From: Fuerstiella sp.
GTDB lineage: Bacteria > Planctomycetota > Planctomycetia > Planctomycetales > Planctomycetaceae
Reading direction: 5' to 3'
Assembly (NCBI GenBank): GCA_029247265.1
Contig: JAQWLN010000148.1
Location: 1-41,886 of the forward strand
Length of the DNA stretch: 41,886 nt
Positions 26,347-33,029 of the stretch are shown here, in pieces. Both the position numbers and the translations under genes were made by a program. Position 1 is the first letter of the stretch. The number at the start of each line of letters is the position of its first letter. The notes under the pieces are model-generated. The model saw nothing but the letters and a program-made list of their open reading frames with translations, made no database searches and had not been told where the DNA came from.

Positions 26347-26379
26347 AAAGGGCGTTCGCAATGCGAACGCCCTTTTTTT
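26347..26379 (+). terminator. Rho-independent terminator
   Basis: A perfect 13-bp stem (26347-26359 with 26363-26375, core GGGCGTTCGC/GCGAACGCCC) with a 3-base AAT loop is followed by a run of T. It lies 26 bases after the stop of the Cys-rich secreted protein. The AAA before the stem also makes a shorter T-tract on the other strand, where the broken DUF1501 gene has already ended. Confidence 0.93.
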
Positions 26380-26415: not shown

Positions 26416-28434
26416 TCACGTCACAATCGGTTCACGCTCTTCCAGAAGATATCGTGGACGACCGGAGTTGTCGTTGAAGGTCATTGCGGGGTCGATACGG
26501 AGATGATGATAAACGGTGGCCAAGACGTTCTCGGGGCGATATGGCCTGGTTGCCGGACTCGCTCCGATGGAATCGGAGCGAGCCAATGACCTGCCCCGTA
26601 TTCAGGTTTCCCCCCGCCAGCATGACCGACATCACTCGGCCCCAATGGTCTCGCCCGGCGTCTTTGTTGATTCGTGGCGTACGACCAAATTCGCCCATTG
26701 CGACGACCATCACACGATTCGCCAGACCTCGTTCGTGCAGATCGGTAATCAGCGCTGCGACACCCTGATCAAATGCGGGGCCTTTGGCATGCATTCGACC
26801 TTTAACATCCTTGTGATCGTCCCAGCTTCCCAGCGTGTTGACGCGAACGGAAACGAACTTCACACCACTCTCGACAAGTCGACGAGCCAGCAGAATGTTC
26901 TGACCAAGCGAACTTGTTCCGTAACGGCTTCGGACCGCATCCGGTTCAGCTGCAATATCGAAGGCGGCTCGGGCCTTATCGCCGGTGACCATTTCGAATG
27001 CCTGGTGAGTAAACGAATCCTGTGCGTCGGCGACACCCTGAGTATCGATCACTCGGCGAGCGTGGTCAAATCCCTGCAGCAGCGTTCGACGATCGCCGAG
27101 ACGTTCCTGTGTCATGCCACCAATCAGCGTCAGGTTGGCAACGACAAGTCCCACCTGCGAAAGCACGGCATCTCGCTTGCGCCAGGCGATTCGCAACCGC
27201 TGCAGGTTCGAAAGACGACCAAGACGCTTCAACGCGGACTCATCAAATGCCTCTCCCTCGAAACGAACTTCAAGATCAAGCCCTCGCGACGAATACAGCT
27301 TTCCGCCCGCAGCTTCGATGTGCCCAATCGCGGCCTGCTCAACATCAAACATTTTCCGGGCATGCGCCGGAGCGTTCGGACCAGCGTCCCGAGCCAGTCG
27401 AAACCCGAGATAACACGCGGCAGCGTCTCGATCCCAGTAAGTGCGATTCGCCGATCGAGCGAACAGGTCACCGTTAAACCAGCTGCCACCTCGGATCGAG
27501 TGAAAATCATTGGCGGGTGTCTGCGGTCGGTCGGAATTAACGGGATCGACTGCCACCTGGTTCGGCTGGTCGTATCGCGGACGGCGGTAGTCCCTGTAGA
27601 TCGTGTCCAGCCAAAGATCTTCACACCATTCCCAGACGTTGCCGTGCATGTCTTTAAGGCCCCACGGATTCGCGTCGTAACTGCCAACTGGCGCCGTAAA
27701 AACATGACCGTCCTCAGGGTCATTGTCCCAGTCCAGCAGCCATTGTCTTTCCGCAGCATGTTTGCGATGTCGTTCCAGTTCGACATTTCCGAGATTGCCG
27801 AATCGGTGAACGACACCTTTGGCCCTGTCCCCAAACGAAAACTAGGTTGTCGTTCCGGATCGGCACGCGAATTCCCACTCTGCCTCTGTTGGCAGTCGGT
27901 AACGGACACCGTCCTTTTCGCTCAGCCAATGACAATAAGCTTTAACATCGGACCAGCTAACGCCAACCACCGGATGGCTGTCACCCTGCGCAAACCCAGG
28001 ATTCTTCCAGCTGAACTTTTCGTTACGAAGAAAATCGTGCGACTGATAAAGTGGCTTATCTTCGGGAGTCGGTTCCCATCCGACCATCTGAGTATCGCCG
28101 CGTTCAGCTGATGTTTCACAACCCCTTTCTTCGACGAAGGTACGATACGAAACTGCCCGACCGTAACTTCGGTTTCGGCGATGTGGAACGGCCGTGTAAT
28201 CCACGTTACGTGAGCGGGGTCTTCTGCGTTGCCGTAGAACTGCCCCGTTGTGGATAAAGGGAAACTGCGCTTCAGTACGTTCTCGCCACCAGACGTTCCC
28301 TGAATGAATCGGCCACCTTCCAGCAACCGGAACCTGGTCCCGACGGAGTCTGTCACCTGTTCCTGAGCCACGGCGGAAGAAGCGACCATGACAAGCACTG
28401 TTGCAATCCAGACGCAACAGATCTGTCGTTTCAT
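26416..28434 (-). pseudogene. Broken chimera: SUMF1/FGE-fold protein + leucine-rich segment fused to the C-terminal half of a DUF1501 protein
   Basis: From the ATG at 28434: signal peptide ([16 protein letters not shown]...AVAQ), then a complete SUMF1-type domain ([78 protein letters not shown]), a leucine-rich stretch (about 27190-27290), and then directly, in frame, the second half of a DUF1501 protein (LVVANLTLIGG, FGRTPRINKDAGRDHWG). Three lesions are seen: a TACGA tandem duplication at 28141-28150 shifts the frame; TAG at 27842-27844 interrupts SGTTT-FSFGD; and one extra base near 26580 shifts the end, whose correct continuation (RPENVLATVYHHLRIDPAM... to TGA at 26416) is still readable. 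A deletion between two adjacent genes best explains the fusion. The SUMF1 catalytic cysteine is also absent (ARSANR). Confidence 0.88.
26558..26582. repeat. Perfect 11-bp hairpin at a frameshift site
   Basis: CTCGCTCCGAT (26558-26568) and ATCGGAGCGAG (26572-26582) are exact reverse complements with a 3-base loop. On the minus strand, removing one C from GGCTCGCTCCGATTCC restores the DUF1501 reading frame (G-S-S-D-S-I-G-A-S-P). That same extra C is what makes the stem perfect. Confidence 0.85.
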
Positions 28435-28573
28435 CCGCTTTGCATTCGTGTCCGCGGCGAAGTGAGCTAACAATGGACAGTTTTCGTCCGGAGAACAGTA
28501 ATCTGTTTGTTGCGTCTCACCGAAGCGACCAACGGACGTGTGCCAACAGCTTCCGAGCGTCAGCTCGAACAGA

Positions 28574-28610: not shown

Positions 28611-30035
28611 TCAGGCAATGATATCATGCACCACCCGTGTTTCTAACTGGTGGGTCAAGCGTTCGCCAAGGCCATTACGATTGAAAACGAGTTCTTCATG
28701 ATGCAGGCCCAGCAGATGCAGAATCGTGGCGTGCCAGTCCTGAATGCTCACTCGATTTTCAACAGACGCATAACCAATCTCGTCTGTATTTCCGTAGACG
28801 GACCCTGCTTTCGAACCGCCACCGGCCATCCATGACGTGAAGCCATATGGCCCGTGATCACGCCCGGCCTTCTTGTGATCTCCCTGAGACATCGGCAAAC
28901 GACCGAATTCACCGCCCCAAACCACCAGAGTCGAATCCAGCAGGCCTCGGTCCCGCAGGTCTTTCACCAATGCTGCGACGGGCTGGTCGGTTATGTCGCA
29001 GATACTTTTCAGTGATGTTCTGATGTTGCTGTGATTGTCCCACGCCTGCCCTCGAGAAAACAGCTGAACGAACCGGACGCCACGTTCGATCAGTCGTCTG
29101 GCCAGCAGACAACGCTGCCCGAATTCATTCGTCGGCTTGTTGCCAATTCCGTACATTTTCTGAGTTGCTTCCGTCTCATCCGCCGTCGACAGCGCCTGAG
29201 TTGCTTCGAGCTGCATCTTCGCAGCCATCTCGTAATTGCTTAGCCGTGCATCCAGAACCTGCTGCCCGGGTCGGGACTTTTTGTGAATGCGATCCAGACG
29301 GCTGATGAGATCTCGCTTCGCAGCCGTGACTGCGGGCAGCTCCTGATAATCGGGTTTCAGATTCAGCACCGGCGAATCACCGGCCCGCATGCGAGTCCCC
29401 TGATGGACGGGCGGCAGATATCCGGACTTCCAGTTGCTGACTCCGTTGGTAGGCAGGCGTCCAACAGGATCGGCAAGAACGACGTAGGATGGCAGATTAC
29501 GATTCTCTGAACCTAGTCCGTATGAAATCCACGATCCGAATGTCGGATGACCGGGAAACGTCTGTCCGGACACCAGTTTAAAGATGGCCGGCTCGTGATT
29601 GGGGTGCACGTTGTACATCGACCGGACGATGCACAGTTCATCGACCTCACCAGCGATGTGCGGCATGACTTCGGACACCCACGCTCCGGATGTTCCGTGC
29701 TGCCTGAACTTCCACGGACTCTGCATCAACTGACCACGACGATCGTTCTCGAAAACGGCATCTTGTGTCAGTTCACGTGGCGGTTCTCCGCCGTCGTATT
29801 TCTTCAGGGCCGGCTTGGGATCGAACAGGTCGACCTGCGACGGGCCACCCTGCATACACAGATGAATGACGGCTTTGGCTTTTGGCGGAAAGTGAGTCTG
29901 TGCTGCATCGAGGCCGCTATCGAGAGATTGCCCGTAGACATCGTCACTCAGCAACGACGCCAATGCCGCCCCGAACATTCCGTCGGTGGTATTGCGAAAG
30001 AAACTGCGACGCGTGGTATGTTGGTTAATCGACAT
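28611..30035 (-). CDS. DUF1501 protein, Tat-exported, partner of a DUF1553 cytochrome protein
   Basis: A 474-residue protein with a twin-arginine leader (TTRRSFFRNT, residues 7-16) and intact DUF1501 layout: VIHLCMQGGPSQVDLFDPKP, CIVRSMYNVHPNHEPA, FVQLFSRGQAWDNH, VVWGGEFGRLPMSQGDHKKAGRDHG and GSVYGNTDEIGYAS. It belongs to a different subgroup from the gene at 13251. It overlaps the end of the upstream PSCyt1/DUF1553 gene by 11 bases, the standard planctomycete pairing of these two families, which suggests that they act together after export. The substrate is unknown. Confidence 0.9.
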   Translation of the reverse strand: MSINQHTTRRSFFRNTTDGMFGAALASLLSDDVYGQSLDSGLDAAQTHFPPKAKAVIHLCMQGGPSQVDLFDPKPALKKYDGGEPPRELTQDAVFENDRRGQLMQSPWKFRQHGTSGAWVSEVMPHIAGEVDELCIVRSMYNVHPNHEPAIFKLVSGQTFPGHPTFGSWISYGLGSENRNLPSYVVLADPVGRLPTNGVSNWKSGYLPPVHQGTRMRAGDSPVLNLKPDYQELPAVTAAKRDLISRLDRIHKKSRPGQQVLDARLSNYEMAAKMQLEATQALSTADETEATQKMYGIGNKPTNEFGQRCLLARRLIERGVRFVQLFSRGQAWDNHSNIRTSLKSICDITDQPVAALVKDLRDRGLLDSTLVVWGGEFGRLPMSQGDHKKAGRDHGPYGFTSWMAGGGSKAGSVYGNTDEIGYASVENRVSIQDWHATILHLLGLHHEELVFNRNGLGERLTHQLETRVVHDIIA

Positions 30036-32778
30036 AAAGCAAACTCGCCGAATTCAGCAGTCCATGGCAAAAGCCAGCAAGGGCACTGATATTTGTATCG
30101 TCACCTGCAGCAGATTCGGATTCCGATTTTGACTCGTCAGCGCCGTCTGCACTCAATTCCTGTTCAATACTGCGTATTGCGTAAAGTGAAGCCTCGCGTT
30201 CTTCGTCCGATGGCCGACGATTCAGTGCGATTTCAAAGGCACGCGTCACCTGCCCGGTCTCATCGTCGCCCGCTTCGCTTTGAACTCGGGTTGCGAATGC
30301 CTGCGCCAGGTCGAACACCATGCGGTTATTCAGCAGGTGCAGTGACTGAGTCACAACGGTGGATGCTGTGCGTTCTGTACAGTTGGGCGTCATCTGCGGC
30401 AGATCAAACGCTTCAAAGATCGTCGGCATTTCTTTCCGCCGCTGCCGTACATAGATACTGCGACGCCATTTTCCGTCGACGGGCTTTGAAGTGACCAATC
30501 CATCCTCGCGCACTTCTACAGCGTCCGGATCGCCAAACGGCGTTTCATTCAAACGATCGGCAACCAGCAACATCGTGTCTCGTACCTCTTCTGCACTCAG
30601 CCGACGCATCGGCATACGTGACAGCAGTCGGTTATCCGGATCATTGGACCTGTGAACGTCCGTTACTGATGAGCTCTGCATCCAGACGGCGGATGTCATG
30701 ATCTGACGGTGCAGACGCTTAATGCTCCAGCCGTGTTCGACGAAGTCCACGGCCAGCCAGTCCAGAAGTTCAGGGTGAGATGGGGGCGTCCCCAGTTTGC
30801 CGAAGTTGTCGGAGCTTTCCACAAGACCTCGACCAAAATGCTGCTGCCAGATGCGATTCACAATAACCCGCGCTGTCAGCGGATGGTCATCTTTTGTAAG
30901 CCAGCGAGCAAAGGCCAGACGACGCCCGGTCTTGGGAGTGGAATGCTTCAACACGACGGGCTGAAACGGAGTGCGACCATTCGTCAGCATGGACGGCACG
31001 CCCGGCCCCACCAGAATTCCTGGCTGAGTCTCGTCGCCGCGACGATACAGGAATGTGGGCGACGGTCGACCACGGTCCCAGAGTGCTCGGATCTTCGGTG
31101 ACTGTTTCAGCAGCGCGGTCAGTTCTGTCTGTTCTGCCCTGAGCTTCTTTTTCTGGTCGCCCGCAAGCCCCTTCTGTTTTAACTCGGCCGTAATCTCATC
31201 AATTCGCTTTTGCGTCTGCTGTTGCTTGTCTTTGACCGCTGCACGTTCATCGGGTCGAAGCACTTCCAATAGACGCTGTTTTGATTTCTTCCACTGATTG
31301 TTGAAGGCATGTGGCGTCATCCAGTCGTATTCGTCGTACGCCCCCTTGAAGACCGCCACCATCCGATAATAATCGCGCTGAGGAATGGGATCATATTTGT
31401 GGGTATGACACCGGGCACAATTCATCGTCAGCCCCATCAAACTGCGTGACACAACATCAATCGCATCAGTGATCACTTCCATCCGATCCGAGAACCGATT
31501 TACCGGATCAGCCGCCGTCCCGTCTGGAACCATTCTCAGAAATCCCGTCGCTGTGAGTCGGTCGATGACGTCATCCGTGACCGACGACTCATCCGCCCAG
31601 TCGACCAGTTCGTCACCTGCCAGCTGTTCGACAAGGAATTCACTGTACGGTTTGTCATCGTTGAATGCCTTGATGACCCAGTCACGGTACCTCCACGCAA
31701 ATGGCCGTACGGAATCGGCGTTACGCTTTCCTTCGGAATCTGAATAGCCAGCCAGATCCAGCCAGAACCGGCCCCATTTTTCACCGTAGCGAGGCGATTC
31801 CAGCAACCGATCAAGCAATCGCGGCCAGGCGTCGGCGGTGTGATCTTCAGTAAACTCTATGAGCAAAGTCTCACTCGGCGGCAGCCCGGTCAATGCAAAT
31901 GCAGCACGTCGCGCCAGAGTTGTGCGGTCTGCTTCGGCCGAAAACTTCACACCGGAAACGTTTAACTTCGACAGAACGAATGCATCAATTTCGGTGCGAA
32001 TGGATTCCGGGGTAACCGTTGGCGGTGCCGTTTTCCTGGGCGGAACGAACGACCAGAACTGTCGTTCATCATCTGTGACAAGAGGATCCGATTTATCAGT
32101 CGCGACGTCTTCAATCAGAGACAGCGGTGTCGCACCCGCAGCAACCCATTGTTTTAGTCGGTCTAACTCAGCCGTCGTCATGGGCTCGATGCCCGATTCA
32201 CCGATGTCCGCCTTCGGTGGACAGAGCTGTTCCACAACCCGTGTCACCATCAGGCTTTCGTCCGGCTTGCCGGCAACAAACGCAGCGCCATTTTTTCCGC
32301 CCTGCCGCATCAGCGAATGCTGGCGCAGATCAAGATCGCCAAACTGATACTCCGGGCCATGGCACATCACGCACCGTCGCAGAATCAGCGGGACGATGTC
32401 GGCATAGGTAACTTCCACTGTTTGTGCGGACTCATACCCTGACAAGTCGGCCCCGGATTCGATCCATTGTCGGATCACACCGATCTGTTCGGCCGTCATT
32501 GACGGCTCATCTTCCGGCGGCATCGATCCGGAATGGATCATTTCAAACAGCAGACTTTCGTCCGGCGCGCCGGCAACAATCAGCGGTCCGGATTCGCCGC
32601 CTCGTTTGAAGGCCGCCCAATCAACCAGGCTTAAGTCCGCTTTCCGAGTCTTCTGCCCGTGGCACTTGTCACACCGAGCAGCAAGGATCGGCCGAACATC
32701 ACGTGCAAACGTCAGTTCCACAGCTCTGAGACTGGATTCGCTGACGAAACACAGAGAGATCCCGCAGATGGCCCGCAT
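30025..32778 (-). CDS. PSCyt1-DUF1549-DUF1553 planctomycete cytochrome protein
   Basis: A 917-residue exported protein from the ATG at 32778. Order: short hydrophobic leader, a cytochrome-like domain with two CxxCH haem motifs (RCDKCHGQ near the start and RCVMCHGPEYQ), a DUF1549 domain (SPRYGEKWGRFWLDLAGYSDSEG), a third CxxCH (NCARCHTHKYDPIPQRDYY), a coiled coil (about the KDKQQQTQKRIDEITAELK region), and DUF1553 (RVIVNRIWQQHFGRGLVESSDNFG, SHPELLDWLAVDFVEHGWSIKRLHRQIM, RRLSAEEVRDTMLL). These large proteins are a planctomycete hallmark, and their role, perhaps oxidative polysaccharide handling, is not established. The frame extends to 32868, but the ATG at 32778 gives the leader. Confidence 0.9.
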   Translation of the reverse strand: MRAICGISLCFVSESSLRAVELTFARDVRPILAARCDKCHGQKTRKADLSLVDWAAFKRGGESGPLIVAGAPDESLLFEMIHSGSMPPEDEPSMTAEQIGVIRQWIESGADLSGYESAQTVEVTYADIVPLILRRCVMCHGPEYQFGDLDLRQHSLMRQGGKNGAAFVAGKPDESLMVTRVVEQLCPPKADIGESGIEPMTTAELDRLKQWVAAGATPLSLIEDVATDKSDPLVTDDERQFWSFVPPRKTAPPTVTPESIRTEIDAFVLSKLNVSGVKFSAEADRTTLARRAAFALTGLPPSETLLIEFTEDHTADAWPRLLDRLLESPRYGEKWGRFWLDLAGYSDSEGKRNADSVRPFAWRYRDWVIKAFNDDKPYSEFLVEQLAGDELVDWADESSVTDDVIDRLTATGFLRMVPDGTAADPVNRFSDRMEVITDAIDVVSRSLMGLTMNCARCHTHKYDPIPQRDYYRMVAVFKGAYDEYDWMTPHAFNNQWKKSKQRLLEVLRPDERAAVKDKQQQTQKRIDEITAELKQKGLAGDQKKKLRAEQTELTALLKQSPKIRALWDRGRPSPTFLYRRGDETQPGILVGPGVPSMLTNGRTPFQPVVLKHSTPKTGRRLAFARWLTKDDHPLTARVIVNRIWQQHFGRGLVESSDNFGKLGTPPSHPELLDWLAVDFVEHGWSIKRLHRQIMTSAVWMQSSSVTDVHRSNDPDNRLLSRMPMRRLSAEEVRDTMLLVADRLNETPFGDPDAVEVREDGLVTSKPVDGKWRRSIYVRQRRKEMPTIFEAFDLPQMTPNCTERTASTVVTQSLHLLNNRMVFDLAQAFATRVQSEAGDDETGQVTRAFEIALNRRPSDEEREASLYAIRSIEQELSADGADESKSESESAAGDDTNISALAGFCHGLLNSASLLYVD

Positions 32779-33029
32779 TGCGGCATCTCGCAGCTGTTTG
32801 GAACAGTGGGATCGAATTGTGGTGCAGCACCACATTTGTTCGAGACCTTCAGTCGGCGGGAAGGACATGACTGGGGAGGCAGGTGGGCAGCGTCAGTGTA
32901 CACATTGACTGCACGAAAAACATGTGAATTGCGATGTGGCAGCGGCACTGCCGCAACGAAGCCGCTCGCCATCATGACACAATCCGAAACACTGAAGGCG
33001 CGGCGAAATGGGATACCGTTTGCGCGCAC

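Follow-up and report, generated by a model that had tools for sequence, protein, structure and literature searches.

We find that a single added base in a decaying planctomycete gene both shifts the reading frame and completes a perfect hairpin. The gene lies in the window, by which we mean the whole 41,886-base stretch of DNA analyzed (contig C267 of a 280-contig assembly). The best explanation is that the extra base was copied from the opposite arm of the hairpin during a brief template switch in replication. Judged from the pattern preserved at the locus, we put the probability of this explanation at roughly 0.8.

On the minus strand, positions 26582 to 26558 read CTCGCTCCGAT-TCC-ATCGGAGCGAG. 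A pattern check of the window confirmed the 11-bp exact reverse-complement arms (11/11 complementary) and the 3-base loop that a first-pass annotation had described. That annotation gave the span as 26558..26584, which locates the hairpin but overshoots the arm end (26582) by two bases. The DNA folds at −14.5 kcal/mol (z = −6.0), and none of 200 shuffled sequences folds as well. Three perfect inverted repeats with arms of at least 11 bp and a loop of 3 to 20 bases occur in the window (26558-26582, 26347-26375, and 141-171), and twelve with arms of at least 11 bp and a loop of 3 to 10 occur in the 427,271 bases of the fetched loci, some of which overlap. Within the gene remnant (1,914 bases scored), only the 22 bases of this hairpin sit in a perfect arm of at least 9 bp.

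The open reading frame (ORF) around the hairpin is a fusion, identified by profile search, in which the end of an FGE-sulfatase domain is followed by the back part of a DUF1501 protein. The DUF1501 match (PF07394) scores 166 bits against a curated cut-off of 27 and covers profile positions 148 to 336 of 390, the front part being missing. In the translation of the DUF1501 remnant, the reading frame breaks at the hairpin. The frame used 5′ of the hairpin enters a foreign tail with a stop at 26432, while 3′ of the hairpin another frame gives the usual DUF1501 family end, through the TGA at 26418-26416. This agrees with the first-pass annotation, which had read a normal DUF1501 end in a sequence relieved of the extra base. 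The same annotation had called that base a C. A single added base and the shift of frame both hold, but the identity of the base as the C at 26578 cannot be fixed. BLAST places the gap at G 26579 against one relative (G001) and at the neighboring 26578 against the other (G002). In the three-way alignment, the GC of the window stands where the relatives have a single base, C in G001 and T in G002. A parent C (as in G001) would imply insertion of a G, a parent G would imply insertion of a C, and a parent T (as in G002) would imply an insertion plus a substitution, which template copying could make in one step. The features of the remnant are collected in Table 1.

Table 1. Positions of the hairpin and of the lesions and gene parts of the remnant, in window coordinates.
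Feature	Position	Strand	Remarks
Hairpin 5′ arm CTCGCTCCGAT	26572..26582	-	Extra base lies here, at 26578 or 26579, in the gapped column of the three-way alignment
Hairpin loop TCC, 3 bases	26569..26571	-	
Hairpin 3′ arm ATCGGAGCGAG	26558..26568	-	GGAGCGAG also in G002, ATCGGAGC in G001
Frameshifted tail of the DUF1501 remnant, foreign stop	26432..26577	-	Usual family end would reach TGA 26418-26416
DUF1501 gene, 3′ part (Pfam PF07394)	26417..27145	-	82% / 80% DNA identity to G001 / G002
Deletion joint	27145..27146	-	In G001, flanks 5,723 bases further apart, on the same strand and in the same order; G shared at 27145
FGE-sulfatase/LRR gene, front part (PF03781), in-frame fusion to the DUF1501 part	27146..28453	-	
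Nonsense codon TAG	27842..27844	-	TGG in G001
5-bp insertion relative to G001, frameshift	28143..28147	-	Within TCGTATCGTA; TCGTA read twice

Comparison with relatives gives the change a direction. Eight genomes of the genus were compared, including that of the window, and the gene is present in three of them: the window genome, G001, and G002. The DUF1501 part is 82% identical in DNA to G001 and 80% to G002, and the orthologues are thus 18 to 20% diverged. Across the 732 columns of the shared DUF1501 part, the three-way alignment has, apart from its ends, a single gap, which is one base long and falls in the hairpin, where the window reads GGCTCGCTCCGAT, G001 reads GGCTC-CTCCGAT, and G002 reads GGCTC-TTCTGAC. 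As the first-pass annotation had anticipated for close orthologues, both G001 and G002 have one base fewer at this column, stay in frame, and carry imperfect palindromes only. Their folds at the same place are weak and uneven (−6.6 kcal/mol in G001 and −6.1 in G002, against −14.5 in the window) and no stronger than those of shuffled sequence (z = −0.9 and 0.0). G001 has seven perfectly paired bases adjoining the loop, without the outer CTC/GAG pairing. The fold of G002 has a GGCTC/GAGCC outer stem and a 6-pair inner stem that includes G-T pairs.

More distant homologues also lack the perfect hairpin. With four copies of the window left out, 71 fetched loci were searched. Fifty match the protein tail. 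All of these cover the site, and they comprise 43 different sequences, in which orthologues and paralogues are mixed; the other 21, which do not match the tail, comprise 20 loci that are mostly FGE-type relatives and one locus found by pattern search (L072). With 60 bases scored at each of the 43 homologous sites, perfect arms of at least 8 bp are absent from all of them, so that no intact relative examined already carries the palindrome, a possibility that the first-pass annotation had raised against its own proposal. Nor is the alignment of any of the 43 gapped at the four relevant residues. The corresponding protein spacing, G-x-[ST]-D, is kept by all 116 DUF1501 homologues among the 120 matches listed (of 7,884); the remaining four are three FGE-LRR proteins and the protein of the window itself. 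In a family search of 170 genomes, seven genomes had a match at E = 1e-55 or better, and the six other than that of the window fall within the 43-site count. No second copy of the remnant is found among the protein matches listed: it has one member on one contig, and the next match is 83% identical. The quasipalindrome template switch proposed in the first-pass annotation is thus supported by the two orthologues of the genus, in which the base is absent and the palindromes are imperfect.

A template switch would have proceeded as follows. In the ancestor, an internal loop with one base opposite two would have lain between an outer CTC/GAG pairing, like that of G002, and 6 to 7 bp of inner pairing. 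The growing strand would then have doubled back on itself, or moved across to the sister strand, read the GC of the opposite arm, and gone back to its original template. Of the two arms, the 3′ arm probably served as the template, because it retains the coding sequence of the relatives while the window differs in the 5′ arm. The 3′ arm also looks old, from the parts of it found in G002 and G001 (Table 1), and we infer that the 5′ arm is the one that was rewritten. Selection would have spared the insertion if the gene was already lost or later became so, as indicated by its large deletion, its 5-bp insertion, and its stop codon.

Template switching is the best explanation because of the perfect hairpin, the state of the relatives, the match to the other arm, and the low rate at which random insertions give such a result. 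The derived state is a perfect and longer inverted repeat (11 bp, loop of 3). An imperfect repeat without the change stands in both G001 and G002, although each of these fold signals is weak and the direct ancestor is a reconstruction. The new sequence is the complement of the other arm, GC opposite GC. With TCC or TCG as the parent codon, the added base differs from both of its neighbors, and simple slippage in a short repeat or homopolymer therefore does not yield it; other parent codons would require a substitution as well.

The strongest alternative is that a one-base insertion, in a gene free of selection, completed the palindrome by chance. The other disabling lesions mean that any insertion would have been tolerated, and the site is somewhat palindrome-prone, G001 already reaching 7 bp. 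However, in a simulation of random single insertions at 63 loci, a perfect arm of at least 11 bp holding the new base arose in only 27 of 60,000 trials, a rate that is raised by loci that partly overlap and by records that contain long palindromes. With the threshold lowered to 9 bp, 118 of the 60,000 insertions completed such a repeat. Among all possible single insertions in the G001 and G002 genes, with 60 bases at each gene end left out, none of 9,720 gave an arm of at least 10 bp and three gave an arm of 9. The insertion was placed by alignment with the relatives and not by the palindrome, although the site itself had been picked out of 42 kb in the first-pass annotation. A chance insertion would also have had to supply a base that copies no neighbor, for parent codons TCC or TCG. 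We therefore consider chance unlikely.

Slightly less likely again is a sequencing or assembly artefact, with the base introduced when the library was amplified or the consensus called, at a site prone to hairpins. The change is one base in one draft assembly of 280 contigs, and hairpins may cause polymerases to switch template in vitro too. Against this, when other ORFs are aligned to G001 and G002, their frame gaps come in compensating sets; the exceptions are a gap at the last base of an ORF and a 6+4 gap no more than about 45 bases from a G001 contig end. This pattern speaks against a poor assembly. Furthermore, one more lesion in the remnant is unsurprising, given its 5-bp insertion, its stop codon, and the 5.7-kb deletion. 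The remaining alternative, two slippage steps consisting of a 4-bp tandem duplication (GCTC-GCTC in the window) and a 3-bp loss for a net gain of one base, is very improbable: GCTCGCTC does occur in the window and the upstream 5-bp lesion reads as a tandem duplication, but two events would be needed at one place, no intermediate length appears at the 43 distinct DNA sites or in the 116 proteins among the matches listed, and the match to the other arm is not predicted.

The gene that carries the hairpin has been damaged in several ways. Relative to G001, 5,723 bases are missing. A DUF1592-type cytochrome gene and a DUF1552 gene have gone with them, along with the LRR half of the FGE gene on one side and the front of the DUF1501 gene on the other. 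This 5.7-kb deletion fused two genes of one operon. The 5-bp insertion is likely to be a tandem duplication by slippage, since TCGTA stands twice. Substitutions at codon positions 1, 2, and 3 of the DUF1501 part number 9, 2, and 39 on the window branch and 11, 1, and 41 on that of G001. The resemblance between these two patterns suggests that the loss of the gene is recent.

The same operon has been lost in part, and separately, in G002, a parallel loss of the gene set in two species. In G002 (L042, 8422-9471), the front of the FGE gene is fused to the back of the DUF1552 gene, the joint showing similarity over about 12 bases. Compared with G001, its FGE front is also longer by one base in an A-run.

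The hairpin of the window is a clean, polarized natural example of a mechanism long known, with a close precedent in yeast, and is no new kind of event. Quasipalindrome correction as a genome process is reportedly the subject of van Noort et al. (2003), “Strand misalignments lead to quasipalindrome correction.” Among the matches listed from the open-licence literature, no title naming such a case was found, and one listed paper, which surveys inverted repeats across bacterial genomes, mentions both quasipalindromes and planctomycetes.

For Escherichia coli, PMC7202029, citing Ripley 1982, describes quasipalindrome mutation as a template switch. Imperfect inverted repeats are presented there as hotspots at which the polymerase is templated by the nascent strand. 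The E. coli case concerns laboratory reporters, whereas the present one is a natural, phylogenetically polarized event in an uncultured planctomycete. The geometry is nearly identical to that of a yeast lys2 hotspot, where, according to PMC3820800, a base added opposite an interrupting base gives a perfect 8- or 9-bp palindrome. That system differs in using a frameshift-reversion assay, high transcription, and loss of RNase H2, and in its shorter arms. Yeast UTP5, as summarized in PMC8604942, offers a natural counterpart, in which a perfect 11-bp inverted repeat of one strain is imperfect in S288c and other strains. There, however, the change is multinucleotide and lies in a eukaryotic gene, whereas here it is a frameshift in a broken bacterial gene. 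An origin of perfect RNA stems by template switching has also been proposed (PMC8794818).

The experimental evidence for hairpin-templated mutation considered here comes from E. coli reporters and from yeast (PMC7202029, PMC8604942, and PMC3820800). At the present locus, in an uncultured bacterium, one can read off the mutation along with its direction, its consequence, and its likely template, because the earlier state is preserved in two relatives. The locus thus suggests a survey in which small insertions and deletions in dead genes are polarized by intact relatives and those that complete an inverted repeat are counted. We lean toward the broader view that this is a one-step, hairpin-templated frameshift in a wild planctomycete, and that the dead genes of its lineage are fossils showing template-switch errors, slippage, and deletion side by side. 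If so, the real mutation spectrum of wild bacteria could be measured from dead genes.

Several other readings of the hairpin were considered. Programmed frameshifting is not favored, given that the same gene has a deletion, a stop codon, and a second frameshift, and that the shift is absent from the homologues examined. Loop inversion by a sister-strand switch has left no sign, the loop TCC not being the inverse of GCC or TCG. A dispersed hairpin element is rejected, as the exact site occurs once in the eight genomes of the genus. A search for the hairpin pattern with up to 3 mismatches gave one additional site, a 25-base near-palindrome in another genome of the genus (G005:C1:3755808-3755832, the locus L072 above) with two mismatches to the hairpin of the window. 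This site is likely to be a chance match, since the reversed pattern, used as a control, likewise gave one match, in G001. A transcription terminator is not favored either: the hairpin lacks a T-run, and a terminator-like repeat sits at 26347-26375.

The surroundings of the remnant can be described further. The terminator-like inverted repeat, of 13 to 14 bp, lies behind the remnant and is kept, with changes, in both G001 and G002. Directly upstream, at 28611-32868, are an intact-looking DUF1501 gene and its PSCyt1/DUF1549/DUF1553 partner, a pair that is syntenic in both relatives. The genome of the window (G000) has 154 DUF1501 matches, and four of those listed contain an in-frame stop (C275:6777, C52:34419, C79:604, and C186:8995).
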